Assembly (NCBI GenBank): GCA_012519455.1
Contig: JAAYQE010000114.1
Coordinates: 1 to 36,748, forward strand
Direction of reading: 5' to 3'
DNA from: Syntrophomonadaceae bacterium
GTDB taxonomy: Bacteria; Bacillota; Ch66; Ch109
Length of the DNA stretch: 36,748 bases
The position numbers were made by a program, and so were the translations under genes. The notes below the pieces were generated by a model. It saw only the letters and a list, made by a program, of their open reading frames with translations. It did not search any database and was not told the origin of the DNA. Within the stretch, counting starts at the first letter, position 1. Every line of letters starts with the position of its first letter. Below, in pieces: positions 5,086 to 26,779 of the stretch.

Positions 5086-5883
5086 ATGATAATTAGGCCC
5101 GAGTACGTCAAGTTGGACCAGCAACCCCGGTTGGCTGATTATCTGTTATTTCCCCGTACGGATCATACCCCGCCCCCACCGGGAGCCTTTGATCGGTTAA
5201 TACCCATAAAAACTGAAAAAGGATTGGAGATTCAGGTGGCTTGCCGCTTTTTCCCTGACCAGGCAAATTGGCCCTGGATTCTCTATTTTCATGGTAATGG
5301 AGAAGTTGCCGCTGATTATAACTACTTCTACCGGAGTTACCACGCCCGTAAGATTAACCTAGTGGTAGCTGACTACCGGGGTTATGGGATGAGCAGCGGT
5401 CAGACTACCTTTCAATCCCTGGCCCAGGATGCACATGACGTATACCGGACCGTACGAGAGGAATTAGTGCAGCGTAATTATTCTTCAGCCTTATGGGTGA
5501 TGGGGCGCTCTTTAGGCAGCATGCCCGCCCTGGAACTAGCGTTTCACTATCCGAAAGAACTTAGGGGACTCATTATTGAAAGCGGGTTCGCCAGCGTAAC
5601 TCGCCTAGCCCGGCAATGGGGGCTCCCTGTCGACTTGTCAGCTCTACTGCCCCTGGAAGAGCAGTGCCTAGACATGATACGCGCCATTACCCTGCCGGCT
5701 CTGGTGATGCATGGGGAACTAGATCATCTAGTTTTCCCTGAGGAGGGTCGTCTAGTCTATGACACCTTGGGCAGTAGTAAAAAACGCTTACTTCTTCTTT
5801 CCGGGGCTAATCATAACGATATTATGCTGGTTAATCCGGAACTGTATTTTAAGGCCCTTGAGGAATTCGTACAGCGTACTTAA
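5086..5883 (+). CDS. Alpha/beta hydrolase (BAAT/YjfP-like serine hydrolase)
   Basis: 265-aa cytoplasmic hydrolase with a complete catalytic triad: nucleophile elbow G140-RSLG (Ser142), acid Asp213 in HGELDHLVFP, and His243 in GANHND. The oxyanion region is HGNGE at 69-73. No signal peptide or cap insertion is evident. The substrate is unknown: an ester, thioester or amide. A strong AGGAGGT lies 6 nt upstream of the ATG. It probably shares a transcript with the radical SAM gene; no biochemical link between them is evident. Confidence 0.85.
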   Translation: MIIRPEYVKLDQQPRLADYLLFPRTDHTPPPPGAFDRLIPIKTEKGLEIQVACRFFPDQANWPWILYFHGNGEVAADYNYFYRSYHARKINLVVADYRGYGMSSGQTTFQSLAQDAHDVYRTVREELVQRNYSSALWVMGRSLGSMPALELAFHYPKELRGLIIESGFASVTRLARQWGLPVDLSALLPLEEQCLDMIRAITLPALVMHGELDHLVFPEEGRLVYDTLGSSKKRLLLLSGANHNDIMLVNPELYFKALEEFVQRT

Positions 5884-5947
5884 CCGGACCGATTCATTCT
5901 ATTACGTAATACGTGATAAATTTCTAAAAAAATCTATTTTAAACCCC

Positions 5948-5976
5948 TTTACACATGAACGATAGCCTACTATAAT
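5948..5976 (+). promoter_or_regulatory. Near-consensus housekeeping promoter for the downstream RNA
   Basis: TTTACA (5948-5953), a 17-bp spacer, then a perfect TATAAT (5971-5976). The predicted transcription start is at about 5982-5984, exactly at the left arm of the closing stem of the RNA described next. This is the best sigma-A-type promoter in the window. Confidence 0.85.
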
Positions 5977-5983
5977 AAGGTTA

Positions 5984-6213
5984 GGGGAACGCCAATACCA
6001 GTAGTTTTTTGAGACTTAGGTTTATGGATTTCGGTTTTACTTCCGCGATAGGCTGTTTGTCGGGTTTAGGTTGAAGGAAGTTTACTCTCGAAAGTACGAA
6101 TGGAAAGTGGGTTCCCAACTTTACGATTGCTAAATAATATTACAAGTGTTTTTCGGGTAACGACGTTGCTTGGCGTTCCCCGCAAGTAAACCCAGGGATA
6201 AAACCCTGGGTTT
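5984..6213 (+). ncRNA. Structured non-coding RNA of about 200 nt (class unassigned; 6S-like or raiA-like size)
   Basis: The 355-bp gap between the hydrolase and sbcC holds no convincing ORF but has all the parts of an RNA gene: a strong promoter, a perfect 11-bp closing stem GGGGAACGCCA (5984-5994) with its complement at 6171-6181, and an intrinsic terminator just after. The enclosed 176 nt contain local helices, for example TACC 5996-5999 with GGTA 6156-6159, an ACTTCC...GGAAGT pairing, and hairpins around CTCGAAAG and GTGGGTTCCCAAC. A 198-nt RNA closed by its own ends is what 6S RNA and raiA-motif RNAs look like in Firmicutes, but I cannot match either consensus by eye. It lacks the SRP GGAA-loop helix and is too short for tmRNA or RNase P RNA. 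Confidence 0.7.
6188..6213. terminator. Intrinsic terminator after the structured RNA (also closes sbcC)
   Basis: 10-bp stem AAACCCAGGG (6188-6197) with its complement (6204-6213), loop ATAAAA, followed on the plus strand by TTTTTAATTTT. On the minus strand it lies 25 bp past the sbcC stop and can serve both directions. Confidence 0.88.
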
Positions 6214-6238
6214 TTAATTTTAATTTAAAATTCACACC

Positions 6239-9200
6239 TTAAATCCGCTGGCAACCGGGGCCACTGATAATGCTCCGACCGCTGGTTTCGGGGATAACCT
6301 GTATCTGGGTACTGATCCGTTCCTTGAGGGCCGCCACATGGGAAATCACGCCGATGAGTTTTCCATCCTGTTGTAGTCCTGCTAGGGTGTCTAAGGCCGT
6401 ATCCAGCGCATCTTCGTCGAGAGTTCCGAAACCCTCGTCTAAGAAAAGGGAATCCACGCGAACGTTTCGACTGGCCATTTGTGACAGTCCGAGAGCCAGG
6501 GCTAAGCTAACAATAAAACTTTCCCCTCCGGACAGGTTCTTAGTGGAACGGATCTCTCCTGCCTGGTAATTGTCAATAACGTTTAGATCCAGGGGCTGGG
6601 TATGGTCACGTAACAGTAGATACCGATCGGTCATTTTTTGTAGCCGACGATTAGCGTGGGCGACCATCATCTCAAAAGTCAAGCCTTGGGCGAAATTCCG
6701 GTACTTCTTCCCATCCGCGGAACCGATAAGTTCATGTAACATATCCCAGCGGGTACACTCTTTTTTCTGTAGCTCGATATCAGCCAGACGTTGCTGCTGT
6801 TTAATCCGCAGGTCTTCATTGTTATCCAGGTCTCGTTTGATCGCGCCTATTTCCTGCTGTGTTTCTTTCAAACTAGATTCATAGGCCGCTAATTTCTGCT
6901 GTACGGTATCGTAAGGCTCATCCGTAATCGCCTTCTTGCGCTCTGCCTGCAGGGTTGTGTGCTTGTCCTGGCGCCGGGTTTGAAGCTCGGTTTTTTCCTG
7001 GTTTAGGGCGTTAACCTTTTCCGTCAGCTGATCTCGTTCTTCTTCAGCTAGACAGGACGTACAGTATGCGTCCTCATCCTCGAAACCGGCCCGCTTTAGA
7101 TGAGCCGTTAATTCCTGTTCGGCCCGAGACAAGACCTCGGTCCGGCGCTGTATAGAATCGTTCAGGGAATCGATTCGGACCTTTATATAATTCACTTCCC
7201 GCTCAATTTTATCATGGTCCATCTGGGCTTGCTCCAGCTCCTTCTCGGCTCTTTCCACCTCATCCGCGCGCTGCTTTTCCTCTATGTCCGGGTTTTTATC
7301 CCCGTAGAGAACGAAGCGTTCTCGGCGCAGGACCTCAAGTTGGCTTCGCCATTCAGCTTGTTCCTGTTGTCTGGCCTCCAGCTCCTCGTCTAGTTTATCC
7401 CGTAACACGCGTTGTTTCTCCAACTCAAGCTTGAGGTCCGTGATATTTTTTTCATGATCACTTTTCTCGATTAGTTTTGTTTGCCACTGACCGCAGCGTT
7501 GGGTAAAATGCCCTAGCAAGCTATTTAGTTTCTCGGGTAGATCATTAATTCCATATATGGCAACTTCTTTAAGGACTTCCCGACGTGCATCAGCGAACTG
7601 TTCTTTTAGGGCTGCGTACTCCTTATCTAACCGATCATAATCACGTTCAGCAAATTCGCGTTTATGCTCCGCATTCTGTAAGGCCTTATCCGCCTCAGCA
7701 TAGGCTTTACGGGCTTTCTCCAACGCTTGTAAAAGTACTTTCTCTTTTTTCGCCTTCTGTTCAACTTCCATGATATGACTAGCGCCTTCTATGATTCTGC
7801 TTTGTACAATAGCCTTTTCATTGGCTACCTTAGCTAAGCGCTCGCCCGGGCTAGCCGTAATTTGTAACTTAAGCCATACCTCGGCGCTGCGTTTCTCTTC
7901 GGCCTCCAACAAAGCTTTCTGCTTTTCAACGTCTTCACCATTCTGCTCGAGATCCCTGGTCGTTGTCGCCTCATGGATCTTCAGCTTAGCCAGCAACTCC
8001 GATATATCCTTTAATTCTTTTTTCGCACTTTGCAGTGCAGCTTCGGCTTCGTCTAAAACTGGAAGATTCCCCTTGGCGTACGGGTGCTCGATGGCGCCAC
8101 ACAGGGGGCACGGCTGGCCGTCTTCCAAACGCGCTCGTTCTGCCTCCAGGTCCCGAATGCGGTTCAGCAATGCCACCCGGGTTTCTAGATGTTCGACTTC
8201 ACGTTCCTGGTCGGTCTTCCTTTCGGTGTAAAAATTAATTTCGCCGACCAAACGCAACTGTTCCTTAACTAATGCATGCCTACGCGTTTTCAGCTCATCC
8301 AGGTTTTGCCTAGTCACGTGGATCCGCTCCAGCGTTTGTTCGGTTACTTCCAGCAAGCCTTTACGCTCCTTCAAAGCATCTAGCTGGTCACGCCAAGCGC
8401 TCAATTCCTGTCCCTTGAGTAAATCCATAATCTCCATATCTAAGTGCTGATATTCCTGCTCTAATTGGGTCAGTTCAGCCTGGGACTTTTTGTAGGCCAA
8501 GGTCAATTCTGCACTAGCGGCAGTGGACAAAGTCTTGATTCTAGAGGCGTCAGCTAACTTCTTATCTGCTGCAGTACATTGGGTATCAAGAGAATGCAGC
8601 GTGTCAAACATTTTGTTTAGCACCTTGAGATTAGTGACCAACCCGGCATCGACCGCATTTTGCCCCAAGTACAACTCGACTTCGCTCAATGCAGCTTGCG
8701 CTGCTTTTAGCGCTTCCTCCCTTTCCCCGATATGTTTGCAGCATTCCTGGTGCTGATGCTTGAGCAACTCAATAAGTTCCGCCAATTTTTCAATTCGCTG
8801 AAGTTTATCGGCTATGCGGAAATCTATTTCCCGGACTTGTTTAATCGTTTCCGCTTCAAGATTCTGCGTAACCCGAGCTTGTTTCTGTTGATCCACCGCA
8901 GTCTGCCAAGTTTGGAGCGCCTCGGCTTGAGCAGTTTCCCAACCAGGAAGGTGCTTACGGGCTTTGACTAACTCCTCCCTCTCTTGATTCTGCTGATTAC
9001 GTAACTCCGAAACCCGTATGTAATCACCTTCCACTACTATCGCTTTACGAGCCCGGTTCAATCGCTCCAAATCTGGCTGAAACGCTTCTTGCCGTTCCTC
9101 GAAGTGCTGCCACTGCTCCTCCAGAACCGCTATTTCTTTTTCCAGTGCCGTAATCCCCTCCAACCAGCCCCGTGCCTTTCGCAGCCACTCGCATTGTTTT

Positions 9201-9907
9201 GCTAGTTCGTCCTGCAAGCAAAGCTTTTCTTGTAGTATGGAATTTAATGCTTGCTCCTGTTCCACGGTTAATAACTGCGTCCCCGCCAGCTCAGCCTGTA
9301 AACTTTCCAGTTTTCTACGTTCTGCCGTCCGATGCTCATGTACCTTGATCGAGATCTGACTGTAGATTTCGGTACCGGTTATTTGCTCCAAGATAGGAGC
9401 CCGTGCATCCGGCGGGGCCTGGAGAAACGCCGCAAAATCTCCCTGGGCCAGCAACATAGAGCGGGTAAAGCGATCGAAATCCATCCCGGACACTTCTTCT
9501 ACCCGTGCGGCCACATCGCGAATTTTGGCCTCCAGTACTTCGCCGGTCTTTGCATTAGAAATTTCATGTCTTGCATTCTGCAGGTTGCCATCCGGTTTTT
9601 TGCGGGCCCGATGCTGACTCCAGTGACAACAAAAACGACCGGCCCGGGTCTCGAAAACCACCTCGGCAAAGCATTCACCGGACTGACGCGTCATGATCTC
9701 ATTACTGGTTGCGGTGATACTGCTTAATCGAGGGGTCCGACCATAAAGAGCCAGGCAAATCGCATCAAGAAGCGTAGTTTTTCCCGAACCGGTGGGGCCG
9801 GTAATAGCAAATATACCATCAGACGTATAGGCAGGATGGGTAAAATCCACCTTCCATTCACCCATTAGCGAATTTAAATTTTTGAACCGTACCTCAAGTA
9901 TCCGCAT
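6239..9907 (-). CDS. sbcC: Exonuclease subunit SbcC (Rad50-like ATPase)
   Basis: Large SMC-like ATPase of the SbcCD nuclease, which cuts DNA hairpins and protein-blocked ends. An N-terminal Walker A (GPTGSGKTTLLDAI) is followed by about 900 residues of coiled coil, interrupted near residue 600 by the zinc-hook CxxC (CPLCG). Then come the ABC signature LSGGES and Walker B DSLFLDEGFGTLDEDAL near the C-terminus. The frame opens at TTG 9913, but the AGGGGG that overlaps the sbcD stop sits 7 nt before ATG 9907, so I take ATG 9907 (1222 aa); the alternative adds two residues. Longer than E. coli SbcC (about 1050) through extra coiled coil. It is translationally linked to sbcD. Confidence 0.95.
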   Translation of the reverse strand: MRILEVRFKNLNSLMGEWKVDFTHPAYTSDGIFAITGPTGSGKTTLLDAICLALYGRTPRLSSITATSNEIMTRQSGECFAEVVFETRAGRFCCHWSQHRARKKPDGNLQNARHEISNAKTGEVLEAKIRDVAARVEEVSGMDFDRFTRSMLLAQGDFAAFLQAPPDARAPILEQITGTEIYSQISIKVHEHRTAERRKLESLQAELAGTQLLTVEQEQALNSILQEKLCLQDELAKQCEWLRKARGWLEGITALEKEIAVLEEQWQHFEERQEAFQPDLERLNRARKAIVVEGDYIRVSELRNQQNQEREELVKARKHLPGWETAQAEALQTWQTAVDQQKQARVTQNLEAETIKQVREIDFRIADKLQRIEKLAELIELLKHQHQECCKHIGEREEALKAAQAALSEVELYLGQNAVDAGLVTNLKVLNKMFDTLHSLDTQCTAADKKLADASRIKTLSTAASAELTLAYKKSQAELTQLEQEYQHLDMEIMDLLKGQELSAWRDQLDALKERKGLLEVTEQTLERIHVTRQNLDELKTRRHALVKEQLRLVGEINFYTERKTDQEREVEHLETRVALLNRIRDLEAERARLEDGQPCPLCGAIEHPYAKGNLPVLDEAEAALQSAKKELKDISELLAKLKIHEATTTRDLEQNGEDVEKQKALLEAEEKRSAEVWLKLQITASPGERLAKVANEKAIVQSRIIEGASHIMEVEQKAKKEKVLLQALEKARKAYAEADKALQNAEHKREFAERDYDRLDKEYAALKEQFADARREVLKEVAIYGINDLPEKLNSLLGHFTQRCGQWQTKLIEKSDHEKNITDLKLELEKQRVLRDKLDEELEARQQEQAEWRSQLEVLRRERFVLYGDKNPDIEEKQRADEVERAEKELEQAQMDHDKIEREVNYIKVRIDSLNDSIQRRTEVLSRAEQELTAHLKRAGFEDEDAYCTSCLAEEERDQLTEKVNALNQEKTELQTRRQDKHTTLQAERKKAITDEPYDTVQQKLAAYESSLKETQQEIGAIKRDLDNNEDLRIKQQQRLADIELQKKECTRWDMLHELIGSADGKKYRNFAQGLTFEMMVAHANRRLQKMTDRYLLLRDHTQPLDLNVIDNYQAGEIRSTKNLSGGESFIVSLALALGLSQMASRNVRVDSLFLDEGFGTLDEDALDTALDTLAGLQQDGKLIGVISHVAALKERISTQIQVIPETSGRSIISGPGCQRI

Positions 9908-9918
9908 CTCCAATCCCC

Positions 9919-19680: not shown

Positions 19681-19691
19681 AACCAAATAAT

Positions 19692-19779
19692 GGGCAACGT
19701 ATCCAAAAGGATACTACGCAAAGCTACGGGTCTAAGGCCCCAAAGTTTTTAATTTGGGGCTATGATAGCCGGGTTGCCA
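19692..19779 (+). promoter_or_regulatory. Cyclic di-GMP-I (GEMM) riboswitch aptamer
   Basis: Matches the GEMM-I consensus: P1 GGCAAC (19693-19698) with GTTGCC (19773-19778); a hairpin GTATCC-AAAA-GGATAC (19699-19714); the core ACGCAAAGC followed by CTAAGG; a GC-rich arm GGCCCCAAA with TTTGGGGC; and TATGATAGCCGGGTTGCC closing it. The middle G of GGGCAA, the position that reads c-di-GMP rather than cGAMP, is G. The stretch AGCCGG (19767-19772) of the core is complementary to CCGGCT (19817-19822) in the terminator, so the unbound RNA can antiterminate. This predicts that c-di-GMP switches the downstream chemoreceptor gene off (inference). Confidence 0.92.
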
Positions 19780-19811
19780 TGAAATTGCGGGGTCAATTCC
19801 ATGTACTAAAT

Positions 19812-19927: not shown

Positions 19928-21928
19928 ATGGTCTTACTGAAAAAATTAAATATTAAATCTAAAGTTTTAATTACCGTTTTATCATTGGTTTTGATTAGTT
20001 TTATTATCATGGGAAGCCTGAATTACATAGGGGCAAAAAATTCACTGACTACACAAATGGAAGACCAAGCCCTTAATATGGCCCAAGCCCAATCAGAAAA
20101 TATTGATAACTGGTTAAAAATCCGTCTTGCAGAAGTTACTACCCTGGCAAGTACCGGAATAGTAAGAAATATGGATGTGGACCAAATAAAACCAGGATTA
20201 GTTTATCACCATGAACGGCTTAAGGAGTTTTATGAACTCTTGTACGTAGCAGAACCGGATGGCACCTGCCATCTTAGTACGGGTGAAACTAATAATATTA
20301 CCGATCGCGACTATTTCCGCCAGGCTATGGCCGGTAAAACCCTGGTATCGGACCCGGTAGTATCAAAGGCTACCGGCAATCCCATTGTGGTAGCTATTGC
20401 CCCCATAAAAAACGATCAAGGCAAGGTTATCGGTGCTTTCGGTGGAGTCGTACTTATCGATACCCTAAACCGCATGGTCTCAGAGGTCAAGATTGGCGAA
20501 ACCGGTTACGCCTACATGTTACAGCAGGACGGCCTTACGCTAGTACACCCGGATAAAAACTGGGTATTAAAGAAAAACCTGCTTAAAGAGGCGGATACTG
20601 ATTCGAATCTGCTTGAGCATCTTACTCAGATGAGTAAAGGTGAAACAGGTTTGGGGTACTACTTATGGGACGGAGATGAGAAACTAATCAGTTATGCCCC
20701 GGTTAAAACTACCGGATGGGGTTTAGCGGTAACTGTTCCTACTAAGGAAATAAACGCTAGTATCAACGCTCTGGCCCAAAACAGTTTAATTGTAGGCGCG
20801 TTATGCTTGTTTATTTTAGGTTTGGCGTTATCCTTTATGATTCAGCTGTTGATCAAACCACTCCTTAGTCTGAATTTAGTCAGTCAAAAGATAGCCGCGG
20901 GGGATCTTTCCGAAAAGGTAGAGGTTAATTCCGACGACGAAGTAGGACAGTTGGCGCAAAATTTTAATATTATGGTAGATAACCTGCGCGGTTTAGTGGA
21001 ACAGATAAGTACAATGACAGTGCAAGTAGCAGATGCCACTGGACAACTAGCCGGTGCTGCCTCGGAAACCGGCACAGCAGCTGAACAGGTGGCAATCAGT
21101 ATGGGCGAATTAGCCCACGGTACCGCTAATGAGGCTGAGCTTACGCAGGATGCGGCGGGCGTAGTTAACGAAATGAGTCAGGCCCTGCAACAGGTAGAGC
21201 TCGGCGCTAAACAAATCGACCAAGTATCCCAAAACTTCCAGGTAGTAGTAAATGAAGGAATGGATGCGGTAAAAGAATTAGATCAGAAAATGGCAGCCAG
21301 TGTAGATTCTTCCGCTGGAGTAGAAAACGCGATTCGCGACCTGGATCAACAATCCAAGGAAATCGGTAATATCGTAGAAGTGATTACTAATATCGCTGGC
21401 CAGACTAATTTACTGGCACTAAACGCAGCCATTGAAGCGGCCCGGGCTGGTGAACAAGGTCGAGGTTTTGCCGTGGTAGCTGATGAAGTACGTAAACTAG
21501 CGGAAGGTTCAGCCCAGGCGGCTAATCAGATCGCCCAGATCATCCAGGATATTCAGAAGGGAACCGAAACAGCGGTCAATGAAGTGGTCAACGCCATCAC
21601 CGTAATCCGAGCCCAGGAACAGGCCGTAATAACCACGGAAAATCTATTTAACAATATAGGCAAAGGGGTAGAGTCCATCCAGCAAGAAATTAGCTCCACC
21701 CTTACCGCTCTGAATCAGCTGGACACCCAGGCACAACGAATTGTGCAAGCTGTAGAAAGTATTTCAGCGATTACGCAGGAATCAGCGGCTTCAACGGAAG
21801 AGGTTTCCGCGATAACGGAAGAACAAACTGCTTCGGTGCAAATGATCGCCTCCTCTGCACAGGAGATTTCCAATTTAGTTAAACAACTAGAAAATGCCGT
21901 GGATAGCTTTAAATTAAACGATAATTAA
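19928..21928 (+). CDS. Methyl-accepting chemotaxis protein (dCache-type sensor)
   Basis: 666-aa transmembrane chemoreceptor: TM1 at about 13-35, an extracellular double-Cache-like sensor at about 36-280 (with [11 protein letters not shown] and a YAYMLQQDG segment), TM2 at about 285-308, HAMP at about 308-360, then the cytoplasmic signalling coiled coil. The CheA/CheW-binding tip is at about 490-525 ([20 protein letters not shown] and onward). No C-terminal CheR/CheB tether pentapeptide is seen. The ligand is unknown; Cache sensors often bind amino or organic acids. AAGGAGG lies 7 nt upstream of the ATG. It is transcribed through the c-di-GMP riboswitch leader, which ties receptor supply to the motile/sessile switch. 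Confidence 0.94.
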
Positions 21929-24651: not shown

Positions 24652-26490
24652 CTACTCCACCGTTACTGCTTTAGTCAAATTTCGGGGCTGATCTACATTC
24701 GTTCCCCGGGTGACGGCTGCATAATAGGCCAAAAGTTGCAGGGGGATTACCGCCAATATTGAGGTTAAATCGTTATGCGTTCTAGGCAAATAGATAATCT
24801 CATCCACGCACTCCTGCAGCTGGGTGTCCCCCTTCAGGGCCAGACCGATTACTGTAGCTCCCCGGGCCTTGAGTTCTTTTACGTTATTTACAGTTTTTTC
24901 TAAAAGACTTTCCTGGGTCCCCAGAGCGATTATCGGGAAACCTTCTTCAATCAGCGCAAAAGTACCGTGTTTCAATTCTCCAGCCGCATAAGCCTCAGCG
25001 TGAATATAGGTAATCTCCTTAAGTTTTAGTGAGCCCTCCATAGCTACTGCATAATCTAGACCGCGACCAATAAAGAAAATGTTTTCTAATTCTGATCGGG
25101 TATACGTTTCCGCTAGTTTCTTAATCTGTTGCTCACGGTTCAGGATCATTTGCACTTGTTGGGGTAACTGGCGCAAATGGGTAATCATCGTTGCGATCTC
25201 TTCTTCTGACAAGGTCCTCCGTACCTGCGCTAGGTACAGACCTAATAGATACATACAGATTAACTGGGTTGTATAAGCTTTAGTGGAAGCCACGGCGATC
25301 TCCGGCCCGGCCCAAGTATACAATACATCATCGGCCTCCCGGGATATCGAACTGCCTACCACGTTAGTCACCGCCAATACCCGCGCTCCTTTGCGCTTCG
25401 CTTCCCGCAAAGCCGCCAGCGTATCAGCGGTCTCGCCGGACTGACTAATCACCACCACCAAGGTACGCTCATCCAACAGCGGGTCCCGGTAACGAAATTC
25501 GGAGGCAATATCTACTTCTACCGGGATCCGAACCAACTTTTCAATCAGGTATTTCCCGACGATCCCGGCGTGATAAGCGGTACCACAGCCAACCATTTTA
25601 ATCCGAGTAAAATCTTTAATCTGCTGCGGGGTTAAACTAACTTCATTTAGTTGTACATATCGATTATCTAACGAAATTCGGCTACTCAGGGTATCCTTCA
25701 AGGCCCTGGGCTGCTCGTGCATCTCCTTACGCATGAAATGGTCATAACCGGCTTTTTCTGCAGCTGCCGCATCCCATTCCACCTTAAAAATCGCCTTATC
25801 TACTGGAAGCCCTTTCCAGTCTAGAATATACGCTCCTTCCGGCTTTAACACGGCTACTTCTCCATCCTCCAGAATATAAGCTTGTCGAGTATAACTCAAA
25901 ATCGCCGGTATATCCGAAGCCAGAAAATATTCCTTTTCTCCCAAGCCCATAATCAAAGGGCTATCTTTTCGCGCCGCTACCAGTTTACGCGGTTCCTTAT
26001 GGGTAAACACCATCATCGCATACGAGCCTTCCACCCGATTGATCACTTCTAACACTGCTGTTTCTAGGTCTCCTTGGTAAAAATGCTCCACCAAATGAGG
26101 GAGTACCTCGGCATCAGTTTCCGATACAAAGGAATGTCCTTCTTTTTGCAGCCATTCTTTTATGGCCTGATAATTTTCAATTATACCATTATGCACTACG
26201 GCAAAATTACTCGTACAACCCGTATCGGGAGGAGAATTTAAATCCGTAGGCCGGACCTGCGTAGCCCATCGGGTATGGCCGATACCCACATGGCTTTCCG
26301 GAATACCTTCTTCCTGTAGCATGTTTTCTAGGAAGCTAATCTTACCCGCACTTTTCGCTACCGTCAGGTCATCTCCATTAAGTATCGCAATCCCGGCTGA
26401 ATCGTATCCCCGGTATTCCAACTGCTTTAAACAATTTAATAAAATAGGCACGGCAGATTGGGATCCCAAATAACCAACAATTCCGCACAT
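24652..26490 (-). CDS. glmS: Glutamine--fructose-6-phosphate aminotransferase
   Basis: 612-aa GlmS making glucosamine-6-phosphate from fructose-6-phosphate and glutamine, the first step to UDP-GlcNAc. Cys2 is the glutaminase nucleophile (MCGIVGYLG); the N-terminal Ntn domain has GHTRWAT. Two SIS isomerase domains follow, with SQSGETADTLAALR and the C-terminus DQPRNLTKAVTVE. It follows glmM, whose product is converted next. It has its own leader with a glmS ribozyme and a terminator. Confidence 0.97.
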   Translation of the reverse strand: MCGIVGYLGSQSAVPILLNCLKQLEYRGYDSAGIAILNGDDLTVAKSAGKISFLENMLQEEGIPESHVGIGHTRWATQVRPTDLNSPPDTGCTSNFAVVHNGIIENYQAIKEWLQKEGHSFVSETDAEVLPHLVEHFYQGDLETAVLEVINRVEGSYAMMVFTHKEPRKLVAARKDSPLIMGLGEKEYFLASDIPAILSYTRQAYILEDGEVAVLKPEGAYILDWKGLPVDKAIFKVEWDAAAAEKAGYDHFMRKEMHEQPRALKDTLSSRISLDNRYVQLNEVSLTPQQIKDFTRIKMVGCGTAYHAGIVGKYLIEKLVRIPVEVDIASEFRYRDPLLDERTLVVVISQSGETADTLAALREAKRKGARVLAVTNVVGSSISREADDVLYTWAGPEIAVASTKAYTTQLICMYLLGLYLAQVRRTLSEEEIATMITHLRQLPQQVQMILNREQQIKKLAETYTRSELENIFFIGRGLDYAVAMEGSLKLKEITYIHAEAYAAGELKHGTFALIEEGFPIIALGTQESLLEKTVNNVKELKARGATVIGLALKGDTQLQECVDEIIYLPRTHNDLTSILAVIPLQLLAYYAAVTRGTNVDQPRNLTKAVTVE

Positions 26491-26580: not shown

Positions 26581-26609
26581 AGGTTAAAAAATACATAGTA
26601 TCATAATCA

Positions 26610-26779
26610 CGGTCCGGTCCTTTGTCCCTTCAATTACTTGCAGGTTTTGCTCCCGAACTTTCGGTGGTGATTACACCGAGGGGCATCCGCCGAATCTATC
26701 GATAAACCCCTTCCTCGTCAACCAGTCTTAACCCTTTTCCAGCTGTCTTGACTGGTTCTGGCGCTTTGTTGGATTTGCC
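26610..26779 (-). ncRNA. glmS ribozyme: glmS ribozyme-riboswitch
   Basis: Self-cleaving RNA activated by glucosamine-6-phosphate, lowering glmS mRNA when product is ample. On the minus strand the cleavage site A|GCGCC lies at 26765/26764. It is followed by CCAGAACCAGTC and its P1 partner GACTGGTTGACGAGG, then GGGGTTTATCGAT, the conserved core TTCGGCGGATGCCCC, the ACCGAAAGTTCGGG helix and the 3' AAGGGACAAAGGACC segment. All the key conserved segments are present. Boundaries are approximate; the 5' limit is the predicted transcription start. Confidence 0.93.

Follow-up and report, generated by a model that had tools for sequence, protein, structure and literature searches.

What is encoded in the short interval between an alpha/beta hydrolase gene (5086-5883, + strand) and the sbcC gene (6239-9913, - strand)? 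The initial annotation placed an unassigned, stand-alone structured RNA at this locus and considered 6S RNA, the raiA motif, possibly in divergent form, or a new class of RNA as candidates. We analyzed the interval within its window, that is, the whole stretch of 36,748 nucleotides (contig G000:C275), and compared the copy found there (W) with homologues from other genomes. In the following we describe the predicted gene, its relatives, and the question as to how its RNA may work.

Anatomy of the predicted gene

The gene faces the end of sbcC and codes for a predicted transcript of about 230-240 nt including the terminator (5984-6217, + strand, as are all elements described in this section). 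It has homologues in the genomes G445 and G444, and these copies contain no common ORF. Upstream lies a sigma-A-type promoter (5948-5976) consisting of TTTACA (5948-5953), a 17-nt spacer and TATAAT (5971-5976), with 11 of 12 matches to the consensus. Promoter-like sites are not rare in this stretch, since 2 were found where shuffled sequences predict 2.9.

The predicted RNA begins with the 5' arm GGGGAACGCCAA (element 1, 5984-5995), which is invariant in all four intact copies and, based on pairing probabilities, provides the left strand of the closing stem P1 and also of an alternative helix. The conserved sequence CCAGTAGTYTYT (5998-6009) was assigned by sequence comparison as the 5' strand of a second helix, P2, and folding together with comparison identified AAAGTACGAATGG (6091-6103) as the 3' strand. 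The arm closed by P2 (6010-6090) is variable: its sequence is unconserved, and its length ranges from 60 to 95 nt between the trimmed blocks of the different copies. The following internal block GGAAAGTGGGTTCCC (6102-6116) is identical at 15 of 15 positions in the four intact copies and includes TGGGTTCCC (element 2, 6108-6116), a segment able to pair with 5985-5994 (P ~0.89 in 3'-truncated RNAs, all four copies). Comparison of the copies also revealed an invariant TTCGGGT block (6152-6158). The 3' arm TTGGCGTTCCCC (element 3, 6170-6181) is the right strand of P1 and holds the second UUCCC segment. The intrinsic terminator (6188-6217) has the form AAACCCAGGG-ATAAAA-CCCTGGGTTT followed by a T-rich tail. 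Its hairpin (6188-6213) has near symmetry, and sbcC transcripts from the opposite strand may terminate there as well.

Several of these elements had been proposed in the initial annotation. The promoter and the terminator, which starts 6 nt past the right arm, are present as described. The closing stem is perfect and located as claimed, but comprises 12 bp (5984-5995 with 6170-6181) instead of 11, owing to one additional A-U pair. The 16-codon frame indeed has no Shine-Dalgarno sequence, but starts with an ATG at 6025 rather than near 6031 and is not conserved in the homologues. In the fold predicted for W, P1 encloses the P2 arm and further hairpins, with pairing probabilities of 0.98-1.0 across the first nine pairs of P1. 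Folding of 5980-6216 gave a structure more stable than those of dinucleotide-shuffled sequences (z = -2.68; 2 of 200 shuffles were equally good).

Homologous copies in three genomes

A first covariance model, made from the W sequence alone, detected three copies in the order of genome G018 (G445:C248, 70.6 bits; G444:C176, 58.2 bits; G444:C64, 49.5 bits); among 399 genomes sampled from the phylum it returned only the window itself and two hits at noise level. A four-sequence model scored the same three copies at 150-196 bits, partly by construction because it was built from them, and uncovered an additional, decayed copy in G445 that was absent from the model (51.4 bits). With this model a convincing hit was obtained in none of the other genomes of the class (63 genomes) or of the phylum sample (398 genomes); low-scoring matches in other members of the phylum mostly cover the AU-rich middle or do not contain the invariant blocks, and we discarded them as chance. 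Including the window, three genomes thus carry five copies, one of them decayed. The four intact ones are W, G445a (L071/L107) and the G444 pair a and b (L072/L109 and L073/L110).

Other searches for homologues were negative. Blastn against 200 relatives produced chance fragments only; within the family of the window genome, the best fragment (L006) falls into an ORF that reads as murF-like. Neither plasmid and phage collections nor pattern scans of viral contigs contained a homologue, and one candidate from the latter (L093) proved to be a chance match. Relatives with sbcC and hydrolase synteny were examined and do not carry the RNA, and a scan of genome contigs for SbcC yielded no useful relative.

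In all four intact copies TTTACA is followed after 17-18 nt by TATAAT or TACAAT (TAYAAT), which stands 7-8 nt before the GGGG at the start of the RNA, and a terminator hairpin with the sequence CCCAGGG follows a few bases past the 3' arm. The spacer between the promoter hexamers is unconserved. Pairwise alignment of the RNAs gives scores of 47-98, where shuffled sequences reach at most 25-27. The upstream flanks of every pair score no better than chance, nor do the downstream flanks with the exception of W and G445, both of which contain sbcC coding sequence at this position. The copies occupy three contexts, adjoining sbcC in W and G445, and at two other places in G444. No reading frame is common to the four copies, and peptides translated from the conserved blocks occupy differing frames, with stops in W and G444a. 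Given flanks that do not align and the lack of a common reading frame, we conclude that this locus is very probably a real noncoding RNA gene that stands alone and belongs to a new family absent from Rfam, with a transcript predicted from the sequence. What sets the finding above chance is that promoter, arms, core and terminator occur again at independent loci. This gene adds an undescribed RNA family to little-studied uncultured bacteria.

Rfam searches at gathering and relaxed thresholds, covering the window, the region of the RNA and the homologous loci, revealed nothing over the RNA. The Rfam scan suggested by the initial annotation, covering 5880-6260 with E up to 10, also left the RNA itself unmatched; three listed hits fall on the terminator, far below threshold. 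The two known families named as candidates could not be upheld. There is no match to the 6S model RF00013 at E up to 10, and a canonical 6S RNA resides elsewhere in the same genome (G000:C240:2370-2550, 94.2 bits). The raiA model RF03072 has no match in 5880-6260 at E up to 10, nor in the window genome; the same search readily found raiA above cut-off in 9 of 101 relatives, which serves as a positive control, and the raiA members from these relatives, read beside the W RNA, have no motif in common with it. A literature search for RNAs of Syntrophomonadaceae or Syntrophothermus returned nothing relevant. What stands from the initial annotation is the unassigned, stand-alone structured RNA, with a promoter-RNA-terminator layout that is kept in the homologues, and the new class as the option left once 6S and raiA fail.

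The G445 locus has cls, sbcC, sbcD and the hydrolase gene in common with the window, at 61-79% protein identity. In the window genome's own family, this SbcC is missing or the hydrolase is just 43% identical. The proteins beside the RNA are far closer to those of G445, a member of another family, than to those of the window genome's own family. The contig may therefore have been acquired, or may have been misplaced in the assembly bin (contamination); such doubt about provenance touches the lineage that carries the RNA, and not the existence of the RNA.

Other features were observed near the copies and in the window. A 72-aa protein (VECDFNxGDTVMVEQEG) with no NCBIfam match adjoins the RNA in G445 (L107:19018-19233, - strand) and in G444 (L110:182-397, - strand), on the upstream side in one genome and on the downstream side in the other. 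The window includes fatty-acid oxidation genes, a glmS ribozyme (26602-26776, - strand, 109.4 bits) upstream of a 612-aa ORF (24652-26490), and a c-di-GMP-I riboswitch (19683-19781, + strand, 70.3 bits) ahead of a 666-aa ORF (19928-21928).

Possible alternative pairing and modes of action

Three blocks are nearly invariant: a 5' block GGGGAACGCCAA.ACCARTAGT, the internal block GGAAAGTGGGTTCCC, and a 3' block consisting of TTCGGGT and then TGGCGTTCCCC. These blocks are kept in spite of the fact that the neighboring SbcC proteins are only 61% identical, which implies a specific binding partner or target. The 3' part is less uniform: W, G445a and G444a carry the arm GGCGTTCCCC, and G444b and the decayed G445 copy carry the altered sequence GTCGCTnCGTTAATTGGCGTG. 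The 3' arm of W is the same as that of G444a, that of G445a differs by one base, and that of G444b contains two P1 mismatches. The decayed copy (L107:6491-6618, - strand) lies about 12 kb from the intact copy, belongs to the same subtype as G444b, and has no recognizable 5' arm and an altered 3' arm. Because it has the same altered 3' part as G444b, these few sequences suggest two paralogous subtypes that arose by an ancient duplication predating the separation of the two genomes.

The 5' arm GGGGAACGCCA is complementary to the 3' arm UGGCGUUCCCC and also to the invariant internal segment UGGGUUCCC. Only three helices of at least 6 bp are possible at aligned positions in all four copies, namely between the 5' arm and the internal segment (GGGAAC/GUUCCC, nine pairs with a bulged G when extended), between the 5' arm and the 3' arm (P1, ACGCCA/UGGCGU), and between the internal block and the 5' strand of the terminator (UGGGUU/A[A,G]CCCA). 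P2 pairs in 92-96% of cells, and its changes are one-sided only. Folding of RNAs truncated before the 3' arm predicts pairing of the 5' arm with the internal segment in four of four copies (probability 0.88-0.89). In the full-length RNAs of W, G445a and G444a the 5' arm moves to the 3' arm (0.98-1.0); for G444b, with its two mismatches, no such shift is predicted.

The initial annotation had proposed covariation in the closing stem as a check. The arms of this stem barely vary in three copies and contain two mismatches in the fourth, and among the four sequences not a single pair changed on both sides in any helix counted, because the columns are too conserved. Neither fold is therefore proven by compensatory changes. 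Furthermore, in 5-14% of shuffled middles the 5' arm finds a partner that matches the internal segment in quality. Given this chance level and zero covariation, the argument for a switch rests on the invariance of both partners and on the internal pairing that G444b retains without P1.

Based on these folds we propose a trans-acting mechanism with two UUCCC segments, which we consider possible rather than probable. Of the two C-rich segments, the internal UGGGUUCCC and the 3' arm UGGCGUUCCCC, the G-rich 5' arm GGGGAACGCCA would mask only one at a time. As transcription proceeds, its first partner would be the internal segment; the 3' arm, once made, would displace this helix to form P1 and set the internal UUCCC free. 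In this exposed state UUCCC could base-pair with target mRNAs at their G-rich ribosome-binding sites, similar to the UCCC-type RNAs. In Gram-positive sRNAs, UCCC segments pair with Shine-Dalgarno regions, and LhrC contains several such segments and is encoded by several gene copies (PMC4132741). UUCCC is present internally in all four copies and in the 3' arm of three, and which of the two is exposed depends on the fold, as seen in predicted folds only. Besides the zero covariation and the shuffle frequency given above, three observations count against this mechanism: of the 28 genes of the window, glmS alone carries GGGGAA at the ribosome-binding site; the invariant internal block (GGAAAG...) is longer than required for pairing; and folding predicts no switch for G444b, which no longer has a perfect 3' arm. 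Taken as a whole, a new-family RNA gene with a trans-acting two-segment mechanism is the best explanation we can offer, and a tentative one. That the RNA represents a new class of self-masking regulatory RNAs, in which a single G-rich 5' arm is passed between two competing C-rich segments as transcription proceeds, to give two target-binding states, appears unlikely.

The main rival is a rigid structured RNA that, like raiA/ModT, 6S or SRP RNA, functions together with a protein or a ligand. According to this explanation, which has a real though less than even chance of being correct, pairing of the internal UGGGUUCCC would be incidental, P1 would be the only real closing stem, and the invariant blocks would be tertiary or protein contacts. 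Long invariant blocks (GGAAAGUGGGUUCCC, UUCGGGU) that exceed the needs of base pairing are consistent with this idea, and so are the dominance of P1 in the full-length ensemble of three of four copies and the stand-alone gene with a strong promoter. A rigid RNA is more difficult to reconcile with G444b, where the 3' arm breaks P1 while the 5' arm and the internal block stay intact, and with the similarly altered 3' arm of the decayed G445 copy.

The third shared helix raises the question whether the RNA could be a cis-acting attenuator, in which the internal UGGGUU pairs with AACCCA or AGCCCA of the terminator, and formation of P1 leads to antitermination downstream. All four copies allow this pairing and the terminator sequence is unusually conserved, but the helix provides only 6 bp to compete with a 10-bp terminator. 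In W, G445a and G444a the gene that follows is convergent, which leaves antisense read-through as the only cis target; we therefore consider an attenuator very unlikely. Even less credit is due to a small non-autonomous mobile element with the 12-bp ends as terminal inverted repeats. The inverted ends are perfect, there is more than one copy per genome, and one copy is found near recombinase remnants and tRNA genes; however, the ends show no visible target-site duplication, copies within the same genome are strongly diverged, and the promoter hexamers and the terminator lie outside the repeats, conserved at fixed distance with an unconserved hexamer spacer.

A second, divergent 6S RNA that binds RNA polymerase as an open-promoter mimic is strongly disfavored. 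Some Firmicutes carry two 6S RNAs, and the length of about 200 nt and the end-closing stem would fit, but besides the missing RF00013 match and the canonical 6S RNA already in this genome, the homologous loci also show no Rfam match over the RNA, and the predicted fold is branched instead of a rod with a central bubble. Equally improbable is a short coding gene or a dual-function RNA, because the GKWVP- and RVTTLxGVPR-like peptides readable from the conserved blocks share one frame in G445 and G444b but fall into different, stop-containing frames in W and G444a, the invariant blocks show no change at any codon position, and a Shine-Dalgarno sequence is missing.

Comparison with known RNAs

The RNA resembles 6S RNA (RF00013) in length and in its end-closing stem, but differs by the absence of a match to this model and by its coexistence with a canonical 6S RNA. 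ModT, the RNA of the raiA motif (RF03072), is a stand-alone, highly abundant, structured RNA that acts in trans and independently of its neighbors (PMC11706538). The RNA described here is similar to raiA/ModT in its size of roughly 200 nt, its stand-alone gene with a SigA promoter and a terminator, and its occurrence in Bacillota, but has no match to it in sequence or model. With the UCCC-type RNAs (LhrC, RsaE, FsrA) it shares repeated UCCC segments and, as in the case of LhrC, more than one gene copy (PMC4132741). Unlike these RNAs it is larger, its sequence is strongly conserved, and both of its C-rich segments are complementary to its own 5' arm. If functional, this two-partner arrangement would be a simple and testable RNA design that changes its target-binding segment by refolding.
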